Shown: positions 12,259-27,651 of the stretch, piece after piece
How the letters are laid out: the number at the start of each line of letters is the position of its first letter
How positions within the stretch are numbered: position 1 is the first letter of the stretch
Source of the DNA: Chloroflexota bacterium
GTDB taxonomy: Bacteria; Chloroflexota; Limnocylindria; Limnocylindrales; CSP1-4
Length of the DNA stretch: 36,409 nucleotides
Direction: 5' to 3'
Assembly (NCBI GenBank): GCA_003156975.1
Contig: PMIE01000048.1
Location: 13,408-49,816 of the forward strand
Program-made: the position numbers and the translations under genes
The notes under the pieces: model-generated
The model's database searches: none
Told to the model about the DNA's origin: nothing
The model's input: the letters and a program-made list of their open reading frames with translations, nothing else

Positions 12259-14397
12259 ATGCACATTCCGGACGGCTACCTCGCTCCTGCCGTCTCGCTT
12301 GCGCTGGCGCTCCCGACGATCCCGATCTGGGCGGTCGCCACACAGAGGGTCAAGAAGGTCCTCAACAACAGGACCGTGCCGCTGCTCGCCATCTTCTCGG
12401 CACTGAGCTTCACCGTGATGATGTTCAACATCCCCGTGCCGGGGGGCACGACGGCGCATGCTGTGGGGGGCACGCTGATTGCCGTTGTGCTCGGGCCATG
12501 GGCGGCGGCCATCGCGGTTAGTACTGCGCTGGTCTTGCAGGCCCTGTTCTTCGGGGACGGCGGCATCCTGGCGATCTTCGCCAACTGCTTCAACATGGCG
12601 ATTGTCCTGCCGTTCGTCGGCTACGGCACCTACCGCCTCCTTGCCGCAGGCTCGCCCGTGCTCTCGACTCGGCGCGCGGTCGCTGCCGGTATCGGAGCGT
12701 ATGCGGGAATGACCGTCGCCGCGCTTGCGGTGGGCATCGAGCTGGGCCTCGAGCCGGCCTTGTTCTCGCAGAACGGCCACGCGCTCTACAGCCCGTACGG
12801 CCTGAACGAAGCCATTCCCGCGATGGTCCTATCGCACGCACTGGGGGCGTCGATCGTCGAGGGCCTCGTCACGGGCCTCGGCGTGGCCTATCTCCAGCGC
12901 CGCCATCCGGAGTATCTGACGAGTCTGCGCGGCATCTTCGCTCCTGTCTCCGTGGCCGACGGCGACGTCAAGAGGCGCGCATTCTGGCGGCCGGTGGCTG
13001 CAGCGGTGGCAGCCGGCCTGGCGCTTCTTACCGTCGTCGGGCTTGTCGAGGGACGCGGAGATCCCGGCCGCCTCTTCAACGCGAACTGGTCGGCGGTTGA
13101 CTGGCCGGCCGTGGCCACGATGCTGCTCATCACGGCCGTGGTGGGCGCGATCCTAGTGCCGGCCGCTTATCTGCTGCTGCCACGCGCGATAAGACGAATC
13201 GGGGCCGGCTTCGCCGCTCTGGCGGTGATCGCGCCGCTCGGACTCATCGCCCCAGGCTTTGCCTACGGCGAGGGCTCGACGCAGGATGTGCAGGCTGCCT
13301 TCGGGTACGTGCCATCGGGTCTGCGGAGCCTCTCCGGCGTGTTCAGCGCGCCACTATCCGGTTACAACTTGCCGCTGCCTTTCTTCTCGGGCGCAAGCGC
13401 GCCGCTCTGGCATGCCGCGGTGGGTTATGAGATCTCGGGCATCGTCGGCATGCTGGGAGTCGGTGGCGCCGTCTACGCAATCGCACGACTCCTGCGCGAC
13501 TCCGGTTTCACTCCTGAGGCGGCCGAGGATGCGCCGCCCGAGGCGCCTGGCGTCCCAACTCGCGGCGGCCGCATCGGCTGGCTCGAGCAGACGCTCGGCG
13601 GCATAACCGAGAACATCGAACGCGCCGTCTTCACCCAACACCACGCCCGATCTGACGGCTGGCTCCAGAAGCGAGACCCGCGAATCAAGATGGTCGGCGC
13701 ACTGACCGCCATTCTCGCCGCGAGCTTGACCGCCTCGATCCTTGGCCTCGCCCTTCTCTACGGAGCGACCCTGGCCGCGGCTCGAGCGAGCAAGGTTCCG
13801 TTCGGGTTCTTCGTCAAGCGCGTCTGGCTCGGCATCCCGTTCTTCGCGGGCATCGTCGTCCTGCCGGCCATCTTCTTCGTGCCGGGGCCGCGTCTCTTCG
13901 ACCTGGCGATCGGACCGGCACATCTGGCGCCGTCGTGGAACGGCCTCGCCGGGGCGGCCTTGTTCGTCAGCCGTGTCGGCGTGTCGGTCTCGATCGCGAT
14001 CCTTCTTGTCGTGACCACACCGTGGGCCGACGTTCTCAAGAGCCTCCGCGCCTTGAAGGTGCCGCAGGTCTTCGTCCTCGTCCTGTCGATGACATACCGC
14101 TACATATTCCTGTTCCTGCACACCGCCAACGGCATCCTGCTCGCGCGAAAGAGCCGCGTGGTGGGCCGGACGACCGGCGGCGAGCAGCGTCGCTGGATCA
14201 CCGGCACGATGGGCAACCTGATGAGCAGGGCATTCAAGATGAGCAACGACGTCTATGCGGCGATGCTTGCCCGCGGCTTTGGCGGCGAGGTCCGTTCATT
14301 CACCATCTACCGGGTCCGCCCGGCCGACGTTGTGGCGTTGGCCGGTGTCGCCGGAATAGCGGTCGCGGCGGTCTTCGGCGGGAGGGCATTGCCATGA
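12259..14397 (+). CDS. fused CbiM-CbiQ energy-coupling-factor metal transporter protein
   Basis: N-term MHIPDGYLAPAVSLALALP...GGTTAHAVGGTL (CbiM); C-term WLQKRDPRIKMVGALTAILAAS...TYRYIFLFLHTANGILLARKSR...AMLARGF (CbiQ); AAGGAGGAG RBS. Confidence 0.92.
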   Translation: MHIPDGYLAPAVSLALALPTIPIWAVATQRVKKVLNNRTVPLLAIFSALSFTVMMFNIPVPGGTTAHAVGGTLIAVVLGPWAAAIAVSTALVLQALFFGDGGILAIFANCFNMAIVLPFVGYGTYRLLAAGSPVLSTRRAVAAGIGAYAGMTVAALAVGIELGLEPALFSQNGHALYSPYGLNEAIPAMVLSHALGASIVEGLVTGLGVAYLQRRHPEYLTSLRGIFAPVSVADGDVKRRAFWRPVAAAVAAGLALLTVVGLVEGRGDPGRLFNANWSAVDWPAVATMLLITAVVGAILVPAAYLLLPRAIRRIGAGFAALAVIAPLGLIAPGFAYGEGSTQDVQAAFGYVPSGLRSLSGVFSAPLSGYNLPLPFFSGASAPLWHAAVGYEISGIVGMLGVGGAVYAIARLLRDSGFTPEAAEDAPPEAPGVPTRGGRIGWLEQTLGGITENIERAVFTQHHARSDGWLQKRDPRIKMVGALTAILAASLTASILGLALLYGATLAAARASKVPFGFFVKRVWLGIPFFAGIVVLPAIFFVPGPRLFDLAIGPAHLAPSWNGLAGAALFVSRVGVSVSIAILLVVTTPWADVLKSLRALKVPQVFVLVLSMTYRYIFLFLHTANGILLARKSRVVGRTTGGEQRRWITGTMGNLMSRAFKMSNDVYAAMLARGFGGEVRSFTIYRVRPADVVALAGVAGIAVAAVFGGRALP

Positions 14398-24777: not shown

Positions 24778-25533
24778 ATGAAACGAGCCAAGACTCTGCT
24801 CGTTTCCGTCTTGCTAGCGGCGTCGACGCTCTGTGCCACGGCACAGGGCTCACTCGCTTACTCCGGCTCGGTGTGGTCCAACTCAGATGGGTTCACCAGC
24901 CGCTGTTTAGGCTTCACGGATACATACCCCAAACAGCTCTACTCGCTCGCACAGACCCAGATGCCAGCCCGCGGCTACAGCCCCGTAAACGGCGCGCTCG
25001 GAGCCTCCTTCACAAGGTCGGCATTTCTGAACCAGGCCGTGGGCAACTGGGCCATATACGTCCACAGTCACGGCGACAACTATCGCGCGACGTCAGGCTC
25101 GGGGATCGACTCGGCCTTCCTGCAGGACCCGGGTCCCACCGCCTGCTCCAACTACAAGGTCGATTCCGTCCGGGCCAGTTCCATCAAAGCGACCACATCG
25201 GGCGGACCCTTCAACCTCGTGATCATGTCGACGTGCCGGCTGGGTTCCAGCTCCAGCACGATGCCGGGCGCATTCCACATCGAGAAGGTCAAGAACAGCA
25301 CCGACCCGGAGTTCTTCCTCGGCTACGTCAACCTCACCTACGACAGCTCGCAACTCCGCTTCGAGAGGGCGTTCTGGAGCTACCTGAACGCCGTCGGGAG
25401 CCCGCTGCGTACGGCCTCTCAGGCCTTCGCGTATGCGTCCGGACTCGGCGGTTACAGCTCGCCGGATACGGCGGATCCGTTCCAGGCGAACTGGTGGGGC
25501 AACCCCGGCTACAACGGAAGGGCGCGGTCATGA
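24778..25533 (+). CDS. secreted protein, possible caspase-like (clan CD) fold
   Basis: Signal peptide MKRAKTLLVSVLLAASTLCATAQGSLA; WAIYVHSHGDNY (His-Gly) and LVIMSTCRLG (S-x-C) followed by FERAFWSYLNAVGSPLRTASQAFAYA; GGGAGGT RBS. Confidence 0.6.
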   Translation: MKRAKTLLVSVLLAASTLCATAQGSLAYSGSVWSNSDGFTSRCLGFTDTYPKQLYSLAQTQMPARGYSPVNGALGASFTRSAFLNQAVGNWAIYVHSHGDNYRATSGSGIDSAFLQDPGPTACSNYKVDSVRASSIKATTSGGPFNLVIMSTCRLGSSSSTMPGAFHIEKVKNSTDPEFFLGYVNLTYDSSQLRFERAFWSYLNAVGSPLRTASQAFAYASGLGGYSSPDTADPFQANWWGNPGYNGRARS

Positions 25534-26480
25534 ACAGGGTGCACGCAACGAAGTCTCTTACGGCGATCAAGGGGCTCCTGGCCGGAACGACGCTGATCGC
25601 AGGTCTCGCTTTCTGCACCGGCCAGCTGGCAGCGGCGAGCCTCGGCAGCGCCCATAACGGCTCGGACGGCCTGGACGCAGGTCCAGCCAGCCGACAGGTG
25701 ACGACCGAAAGCGCGCTCTTCGCCGCGAACCGCCCGGACGTCTTTGCCCGGGCCGGGATCGCACGCGGCGCTCTTGGGTTCCCTGCGGGTTACAGGCGTA
25801 CCGGCCGGCACGTTCACGACGGCATCCAGGGCCTGGACTACGACGAGGTGTCCGAGATCGACTCGGCCGGGCGCCCAATCGCAATGACTCAATTCGCGCC
25901 CGACGGCCGCCTAGTGGATGCGGTTCGGTTCGATTCGCCTCCCAGCGGTCTCGGCAGCGTGTCGAGCGACGCGGCCACAAAGGCCGCCCAGCGCGCCGTG
26001 GCAGGTGCCGGCCTTTCGGTTGTCGGCCCCGCGCTGACCGAAGCCAATCAGACTTTGGGCGGCTGGGACGTGCATTGGGCGAGAGCCCAGGGCAGATACG
26101 CCGTCCGCGGCGACGAAACGCGGGTCCATGTCTGGCAGGACGGACGTATTCAGAGCGTGGCCCAGGTCGAGCACGCGCTGGCGGCGGCGCCGCAGCGGCT
26201 CCTCGCCCAGTCTGACGCCCGAGGCTCCGTCACGCGACAGTGCAACGCCTGGTTCGCCGGAACAGGCTCGAGCTACGCCCTCAAGAGCATGGATCTCGAA
26301 TGGGTCGGACCAAACGCGGCGTTCGACGCCGACAAGCTGACAGCGGCCGCGGCGCCCTACAGGCTTGCATGGGTCGCCAACGTCAATCCATCCGGCCCCG
26401 CGGCGGATTCCGTGCAGCTCATCACGCTCTTTGTCGACGCCGGAAGTGGTGCCGTCATCGGCGGCGACGTGGTCGAGTAG
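25530..26480 (+). CDS. secreted PepSY/FTP-propeptide-like protein
   Basis: Signal peptide; AAQRAVAGAGLSVVGPALTEANQTLGGWDVHWARAQGRYAVRGDETRVHVWQDGRIQSV and RLAWVANVNPS...LFVDAGSGAVIGGDVV; 4-nt overlap with upstream gene. Confidence 0.55.
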   Translation: MNRVHATKSLTAIKGLLAGTTLIAGLAFCTGQLAAASLGSAHNGSDGLDAGPASRQVTTESALFAANRPDVFARAGIARGALGFPAGYRRTGRHVHDGIQGLDYDEVSEIDSAGRPIAMTQFAPDGRLVDAVRFDSPPSGLGSVSSDAATKAAQRAVAGAGLSVVGPALTEANQTLGGWDVHWARAQGRYAVRGDETRVHVWQDGRIQSVAQVEHALAAAPQRLLAQSDARGSVTRQCNAWFAGTGSSYALKSMDLEWVGPNAAFDADKLTAAAAPYRLAWVANVNPSGPAADSVQLITLFVDAGSGAVIGGDVVE

Positions 26481-26506
26481 TTCGATCGCATCGGCCGCAA
26501 CCAAGG

Positions 26507-26537
26507 GCCCGTGGTCGTCACTCAGGCGACCACGGGC
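26507..26537 (+). terminator. 11-bp perfect hairpin, attenuator/terminator-like
   Basis: GCCCGTGGTCG-TCACTCAGG-CGACCACGGGC; no U-tract. Confidence 0.5.
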
Positions 26538-26567
26538 GATCAACGGATACGAAGGGACGGGTTCAGG

Positions 26568-27545
26568 ATGAAGTCAGCGACCAGGATTGCTGCGGCGGTC
26601 TCCGCAGTTGTTCTCTTCACCGCTGGGTGTGCTGCGGGTGCGACCGCGAGGTCATCGGTTTCCCAACCGGTCTCGTCCGGTTTGGGCGCATCGCCCACCC
26701 AACCCAGTTCGCCCCCGGAGGCGTCGCGCCTGATCGTGCTCGCAGATGGAGTGGAGGGCGGGACCGGCCTCTGGTCCCTCGGTGCCGGTGGGCAGTGGGC
26801 GGCCCTCGGGGCGACGCCAAACGCCACGGCCCTTGGCCGGACATCGGATGGCATTGCCGTCGCCTCGGGCCACGACGTTGACATGCGCCCCGCGTCAGAC
26901 CTCACTCACGCCGGACGCCACGCAACTCTGAAGTGGTCCGCCGCCGCTCCGGCGGCGCCTGTGGTCTCGCTCAGCGGCTCGCCGGCCGGCAAGATCGCAC
27001 TCGCCACTGCCGATGAACGCAGCATCAACTACTGGCTTGCGGCAGCAGATGGAACGGTCACGGCAATGGCCTCGGCGCCGACACAATCCTTCACGCCACT
27101 CGTGGCCTGGCTGGATGAGTCGCGCGTCCTCGTCCCCTCCACGGACAATCAGCAGGTCTCCCGGCTTGCGGCCGTGAACGTGGCCACGCATGACGTCAGC
27201 ACTATCAATGCAGTCCTTGGCGTGACGGTCTTCGGCGCGTCGTACAAAGGCCAGTCGGTCGCGGTCGCGACGGAGAAAGGGGTCTACGCCGGGCCAGTCG
27301 CGGCATTGCTCGGCGGGACTCCGCCGCAACAGGTTGCGACCCTCGCAGACACACAAGTCGTCTGGGCGCTATCCACGGACACTGCGGGAACACAGGTCTA
27401 CGTACTGGCCGGAACAGAGGCCGCCGATGGAACCGTGAGCGCCCTCCACGAGCTCGTGTATGCGAAGCAAGGATCGATCTGGGCCAAGCTCCTCGATTCC
27501 CCGGCGCCGTTCACGAAGGCGATCGCCCAGGTGTGCACAAGGTGA
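26568..27545 (+). CDS. lipoprotein, beta-propeller-like hypothetical
   Basis: Lipobox LFTAGC; repeated ~50-aa units of beta pattern (e.g. SGSPAGKIALATADERSINYWLAAADG). Confidence 0.65.
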   Translation: MKSATRIAAAVSAVVLFTAGCAAGATARSSVSQPVSSGLGASPTQPSSPPEASRLIVLADGVEGGTGLWSLGAGGQWAALGATPNATALGRTSDGIAVASGHDVDMRPASDLTHAGRHATLKWSAAAPAAPVVSLSGSPAGKIALATADERSINYWLAAADGTVTAMASAPTQSFTPLVAWLDESRVLVPSTDNQQVSRLAAVNVATHDVSTINAVLGVTVFGASYKGQSVAVATEKGVYAGPVAALLGGTPPQQVATLADTQVVWALSTDTAGTQVYVLAGTEAADGTVSALHELVYAKQGSIWAKLLDSPAPFTKAIAQVCTR

Positions 27546-27602: not shown

Positions 27603-27642
27603 GGGCGGTTAGCTCAGTTGGTTAGAGCGCATGCTTGACATG
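27603..27642 (+). pseudogene. 5' half of tRNA-Val(GAC), disrupted in the 3' anticodon stem
   Basis: GGGCGGTTAGCTCAGTTGGTTAGAGCGCATGCTTGACATGC then CGTTCGCC instead of stem continuation; no T-arm or acceptor 3' strand follows. Confidence 0.75.
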
Positions 27643-27651
27643 CCGTTCGCC

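Follow-up and report, generated by a model that had tools for sequence, protein, structure and literature searches.

In the clan CD fold, as reviewed in PMC4357240, the six strands and five helices follow the order found in caspases, with a His-Gly pair after strand beta3 and a cysteine after strand beta4. Among secreted bacterial proteins of this fold, gingipain R of family C25 (RgpB; 1cvr, 4ief) carries the His-Gly...Cys core, and its mature form is inhibited, with a Ki of 12 nM, by its propeptide (about 200 aa) supplied as a separate protein (PMC3677877). Propeptides of another kind, made of FTP and PepSY units, are those of M4 and M36 metalloproteases (3nqz, 3nqy, 4k90), and the PepSY motifs of M4 propeptides act as intramolecular inhibitors (PMC4282423). 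PepSY repeats are also found in stand-alone exported lipoproteins without a catalytic domain, such as YpeB and SspA. PepSY proteins can regulate non-peptidases, as in the cases of YycI and of YpeB, whose target SleB is encoded by a gene of its own (PMC4282423). According to the passages of PMC4282423 and PMC5842191 that cite Yeats et al. (2004), PepSY and FTP domains have long been proposed as general extracellular peptidase regulators.

The two genes described here, A and B, share features with each of these systems. Like gingipain R, A is predicted to be a secreted caspase-fold protein with a His-Gly...Cys core, but it consists of one domain only (about 220 aa), has no prodomain, and its partner is encoded by a separate gene. 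In Foldseek this partner, B, matched M4/M36 propeptides, its sole credible structural matches, and not the prodomain of RgpB. Unlike them, B carries no protease domain, contains an additional third unit and is linked to a single protease candidate, a putative cysteine peptidase of another fold. By structure, the CHAT protein SAVED-CHAT (8tl0) ranks with the best matches of A, and weak CHAT profile matches are found after the cysteine; however, the 8tl0 filament protein is larger and multidomain, whereas A is stand-alone and exported. Finally, B resembles YpeB and SspA in being exported and in containing PepSY repeats without a catalytic domain and, in our reading, it would regulate a separately encoded partner as YpeB regulates SleB (PMC4282423); it differs from both in its obligate pairing with a caspase-fold gene and in its extra FTP-like unit. 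The new point is this combination of a propeptide-like gene with a caspase-fold gene, and nothing relevant joining caspases and PepSY domains was found in the open-access literature.

Gene pair A-B and its taxonomic range

The locus lies in a stretch of 36,409 nucleotides from the metagenome-assembled genome of a Chloroflexota bacterium of the order Limnocylindrales, hereafter the window, whose numbering is used below. The genes concerned are the following.

24778-25533, plus strand: gene A, from ATG at 24778 to TGA at 25533, 251 aa; exported caspase-fold (clan CD-like) putative cysteine peptidase.
25530-26480, plus strand: gene B, from ATG at 25530 to TAG at 26480, 316 aa; exported FTP/PepSY propeptide-like protein.
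26568-27545, plus strand: gene C, from ATG at 26568 to TGA at 27545, 325 aa; predicted lipoprotein.

The first-pass annotation had described three consecutive genes with export signals, the first two overlapping by 4 nt. We find the same organisation: A and B have signal peptides, C has a lipobox (FTAGC, Cys codon at 26628-26630), and the overlap consists of an ATGA common to A and B, through which B is, to judge from the sequence, translationally coupled to A. GC at third codon positions is 0.75-0.82 in the frames of A, B and C, and the differences from the relative L041 are concentrated at third positions (for A, 66, 44 and 106 at codon positions 1, 2 and 3), which together indicate that all three genes are coding. 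Furthermore, A is carried by 42 of 101 related genomes and its dyad residues fall in invariant columns (see below); it is thus not a chance reading frame.

A and B form an obligate pair. B directly follows A on the same strand, with a gap of -13 to +62 nt, at all 36 loci that are not cut by a contig end. B is present in 44 of the 101 genomes; the mismatches with A correspond to contig ends (G052, G064 and G073) or to a partial paralog (G057), and the duplicated copies of G062 carry both genes. The pair is also retained in streamlined freshwater genomes of 1.1 Mb, which argues for a useful function. Gene C, in contrast, is confined to 11 loci of the window's genus (L041-L051, at about +1.7 kb) and matches no Pfam family. 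The conserved unit is therefore composed of two genes, A and B, and a role of C as conserved functional partner is not supported, its occurrence being limited to this genus. The three-gene cassette was rejected as the unit on the same ground.

Both families of the order that are represented among the 101 genomes contain A, and no homolog was found outside Limnocylindrales among 301 genomes drawn from Chloroflexota. When 84,980 species genomes were scanned with a strict pattern for the core motif of A, 38 loci were retrieved, all in Chloroflexota MAGs as titled, including one Candidatus Limnocylindrales and several Candidatus Aquidulcis. Within the searches made, A-B is known only in Limnocylindrales, which are soil and freshwater Chloroflexota; relatives beyond the order may exist.

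Predicted fold and conserved residues of A

Single-sequence searches of Pfam, NCBIfam and PDB gave nothing meaningful for A or B. A was modelled with AlphaFold2 from the family alignment (pLDDT 89.4, pTM 0.86). The model contains six strands (30-34, 70-74, 92-96, 147-151, 179-183 and 237-241) and five helices (50-64, 80-87, 133-140, 189-203 and 213-223), in the order b1 a1 b2 a2 b3 [hairpin] a3 b4 b5 a4 a5 b6, where the small hairpin between beta3 and alpha3, another feature of clan CD, is formed by strands 99-103 and 110-115. This order, as read from the secondary structure of the model and supported by Foldseek, is that of clan CD. The main features of the protein are listed below.

24778-24858, plus strand: signal peptide, residues 1-27, starting with MKRAKTLLVSVLLAAST, predicted cut SLA|YS.
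25069-25074, plus strand: His98-Gly99, directly following strand beta3 (92-96); predicted catalytic His with its Gly.
25135-25146, plus strand: loop after the L3 hairpin, holding the invariant Cys123.
25228-25236, plus strand: Ser151-Thr152-Cys153, closing strand beta4 (147-151); predicted nucleophile.
25360-25446, plus strand: FERAFWSYL...AFAYA, residues 195-223, in helices alpha4 (189-203) and alpha5 (213-223).

The segments HSHGD, LVIMSTCRLG and FERAFWSYLN...AFAYA quoted by the first-pass annotation are all found in A, and the clan CD core order His-Gly...S-x-C that it had read in them agrees with the caspase/haemoglobinase fold of the model, in which the dyad residues are rightly placed. 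In the model, HSHGD comes straight after strand 92-96, with MSTC at the end of 147-151. The annotation had named as refuting evidence a predicted structure lacking the caspase-like alpha/beta sandwich, or a His and a Cys that are distant and not conserved among homologs; A withstood this test as to fold and conservation. The first strand (30-34) comes almost at once after the predicted signal-peptide cut, so that A has no pro-region of its own.

When the model was compared with PDB, Foldseek matched it to DdvA, SAVED-CHAT, caspases, gingipain R and separase, with probabilities of 0.93-1.00 among the matches listed. E-values were 1.1e-4 for SAVED-CHAT 8tl0, 1.2e-4 for caspase-9 (2ar9), 3.3e-4 for caspase-1 and 1.2e-3 for gingipain R (1cvr, TMq 0.55). 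Profile searches do not place A in a family. Peptidase_C25 (PF01364) is weakly matched, in the right region, by 4 of 26 relatives of A (best E 0.00091), one scored relative reaching 16.6 bits, below the cut-off of 23, and A of the window has no PF01364 match; the PF01364 search of the window's own genome was uninformative, as no control matched. Alignment of A with Chloroflexota C25 by hhalign was not significant (E 0.06), the Cys half alone being aligned. Similarly, A of the window has no CHAT (PF12770) match, the best E in the family being 0.0028, in 3 of 36 members and for the segment after the cysteine; segment 195-223 aligns with a stretch of CHAT 8tl0 with an E of 0.18. On this evidence, A has the predicted clan CD fold and dyad positions, yet it is a member of none of the listed families.

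Conservation points to the same site. His98, Gly99, Asp100, Cys123, Ser151 and Cys153 are invariant in the 36-member alignment, as are F195, E196 and W200, and His98, Gly99, Ser151 and Cys153 are found in 40 of 40 sequences of a second set that partly overlaps the first. Only 20 columns of the 36-sequence alignment are invariant, and the chance that the three nominated residues His98, Gly99 and Cys153 would all fall in such columns is about 6e-4 (over about 223 mature residues). Members go down to about 33% identity and no homolog was seen without these three residues. As every member seen keeps His98, Gly99, Ser151 and Cys153, the site is retained and not decaying. The residue two positions before the predicted catalytic cysteine is the invariant Ser151, neither acidic nor basic, and the S1 specificity of A is therefore not predictable. 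Cys43 is conserved in more than 90% of the members of the same alignment and a Cys43-Cys123 disulfide is possible. A CxxC tail (e.g. TCPSCV or CQNCV) is present at the C-terminus of many A homologs (L052-L062, L066, L068, L045 and L046); the window protein has no such tail.

Some caspase-fold proteins are not peptidases, and A could be a non-proteolytic sensor or scaffold of this fold, B being its binding partner. The lowest Foldseek E-value of A, obtained with the transmembrane anti-sigma factor DdvA (8rw5/8rot), would go in this direction, but the TM-score of this match is only 0.41. Moreover, pseudoenzymes usually lose catalytic residues in some members, whereas the invariance of His98, Gly99 and Cys153 extends over 36-40 sequences. 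We consider this reading distinctly improbable and favour a catalytic role for A.

Gene B and its candidate client

The AlphaFold2 model of B (pLDDT 87.0, pTM 0.77), whose N-terminus is disordered, is composed of three alpha+beta units in the order FTP-PepSY-PepSY.

25701-25928, plus strand: unit 1, residues 58-133, FTP-like in the model, strand-helix-four strands.
25965-26168, plus strand: unit 2, residues 146-213, PepSY-like in the model.
26208-26474, plus strand: unit 3, residues 227-315, PepSY-like in the model, with the terminal conserved VDAGSGAVIGGD.

Residues W281, D303, A304, G307, G311, G312 and D313 are conserved in unit 3; by sequence, the DAG.G ending and the Trp of B agree with the sparse signature that PMC5842191 gives for PepSY. 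The units of strand-helix-strands and the FTP-PepSY order are those of the propeptide fold, and only 3nqz_A, 4k90_B and 3nqy_A are matched by Foldseek with a probability of 1.00 (TM about 0.5 by target), the remaining matches listed being below 0.5. By length and entry, these are propeptide chains, of vibriolysin MCP-02 (M4) for 3nqz_A and 3nqy_A and of Aspergillus fungalysin (M36) for 4k90_B. At the profile level, FTP (PF07504) is weakly matched in the B family by 4 of 32 members (best E 0.0062) and PepSY (PF03413) by 1 member (0.008), and B of the window itself matches neither of these two Pfam families. The PepSY/FTP likeness proposed at first is thus weak by sequence and borne out by structure, and the two halves then described are in fact three units.

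A clear lipobox is present in B at 15 of 36 loci, which comprise all those of the second family and one further branch; regex matches in L044 and L045, which belong to the window's genus, were judged not real and left out. No lipobox was found at the N-terminus of A in 36 loci. One possibility is that A is a caspase-fold surface enzyme and B a localisation or adaptor protein, i.e., a membrane tether or a substrate-presenting factor, like YpeB for SleB. The lipoprotein forms of B agree with such a role, as does the fact that stand-alone PepSY proteins localise or regulate non-protease partners (PMC4282423). However, the structures nearest to B belong to genuine propeptides of secreted proteases and, in the window's genus, B resembles a soluble secreted protein, so that tethering is not its common function. 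We thus hold an adaptor role to be unlikely, and a propeptide-like role of B is preferred.

Diverged B-like PepSY proteins are encoded elsewhere in the same genomes (L120-L128), some of them with lipoboxes; no A-like gene is found beside these paralogs.

As the fold of B is that of M4/M36 propeptides, B might act in trans as propeptide for a metalloprotease whose gene lies elsewhere, A being a mere operon neighbour. Among the 101 genomes searched with Pfam, Peptidase_M4_C was found in 3 (G027, G043 and G055) and M36 in 2 (G032 and G091), and all of these are without the pair. No genome carrying A-B has an M4 or M36 peptidase, the negative being weaker for M36, whose control set was silent though the profile scored two relatives. 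In addition, B is found without A only at contig ends, the PepSY paralogs located elsewhere being more distant. An M4/M36 client was rejected on these grounds, and the corresponding reading keeps only the faintest probability. A is accordingly the only encoded candidate client of B; the lack of a metalloprotease client, the caspase-fold neighbour without prodomain and the strict co-inheritance of the two genes make it the obvious one.

Genomic surroundings and the proposed two-protein module

The surroundings of A-B differ between the window's genus and other genera, although the pair itself stays intact. In the window's genus it is preceded by an MFS transporter and a glycosyltransferase. Outside this genus, it is divergent from an adjoining btuF-btuC-btuD-like operon at 15 of the 20 loci for which 2 kb or more of upstream sequence is available, and in 6 of 7 related loci searched a cobalamin riboswitch lies in the gap upstream of A, on the importer strand.

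L063 7760-7906, minus strand: cobalamin riboswitch between A and the btuFCD-like operon.
L058 7362-7505, minus strand: cobalamin riboswitch, same location.
L065 5309-5456, minus strand: cobalamin riboswitch, same location.
L068 7701-7856, minus strand: cobalamin riboswitch, same location.
L054 6950-7093, minus strand: cobalamin riboswitch, same location.
L057 7598-7770, minus strand: cobalamin riboswitch, same location.

This neighbourhood would be in line with a part of A-B in corrinoid (vitamin B12) acquisition, A freeing or processing a cofactor-bearing protein for the adjoining BtuFCD importer. However, the riboswitch points away from A, and the unrelated PGM, NTP transferase and GcvT neighbours of A-B in other genera are as conserved as btuFCD, so that the link with btuFCD may reflect inherited gene order. 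Furthermore, the window's genus keeps the pair, with full-length FecCD/BtuC in only 3 of its 21 genomes and no AdoCbl riboswitch match. As the pair is thus retained without riboswitch and btuFCD, B12 uptake was down-weighted and we regard it as very improbable.

Other features of the window were observed around the locus. The cut-off 5' half of a tRNA (gggcggttagctcagttggttagagcgcatgcttgacatgc) lies right after gene C, at 27603-27643, and beyond it are genes for DUF4279, a TIR-like protein, Replic_Relax and Phd/YefM, so the region past gene C has the appearance of an integrated element with a tRNA gene as its insertion site. A 269-aa protein encoded at 29058-29867 matches a TIR effector in PADLOC (8.2e-10) and nothing in Pfam-A at 0.01; it lies within the putative element and is a candidate for a TIR-like protein with a defence or nucleotide-hydrolase role. 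A and B themselves have no PADLOC defence match. At 12259-14397, CbiM and CbiQ are fused in one 712-aa frame, which is followed by a CbiO-like ATPase.

All these results lead us to propose, with a probability of roughly 0.6, that A-B is a secreted clan CD cysteine peptidase together with its separately encoded propeptide-like inhibitor or chaperone. A would be a minimal single-domain peptidase with a His98/Cys153 dyad and no prodomain, exported by its signal peptide. B would be a propeptide equivalent, translated and exported along with A and built, like M4/M36 propeptides, on the FTP-PepSY architecture, with one extra PepSY unit. It could bind A outside the membrane, aid its folding and block its activity for as long as B itself is neither removed nor degraded, and the lipoprotein forms of B would also hold A at the membrane. 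The freed A would then cleave, or transpeptidate, proteins at or beyond the cell surface. Catalysis by A, its binding to B, the inhibition or chaperoning and the nature of the substrate are what we infer from the predicted folds and the pairing, and the functional claim, already put forward in the first-pass annotation, has good circumstantial support.

The more general proposition, that a detached FTP-PepSY propeptide fold serves as trans-acting inhibitor or foldase of a caspase-fold cysteine peptidase belonging to a new clan CD family, stands in our view at even odds. The role of stand-alone PepSY proteins is directly testable here, as the only linked client is encoded in the same operon. 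If true, the proposition would add to clan CD an uncharacterised family with a very compact caspase fold. It would also mean that a protease with no relationship to their metalloprotease clients can come under the control of PepSY/FTP domains, and that the same safety catch may serve unrelated catalytic types of protease.
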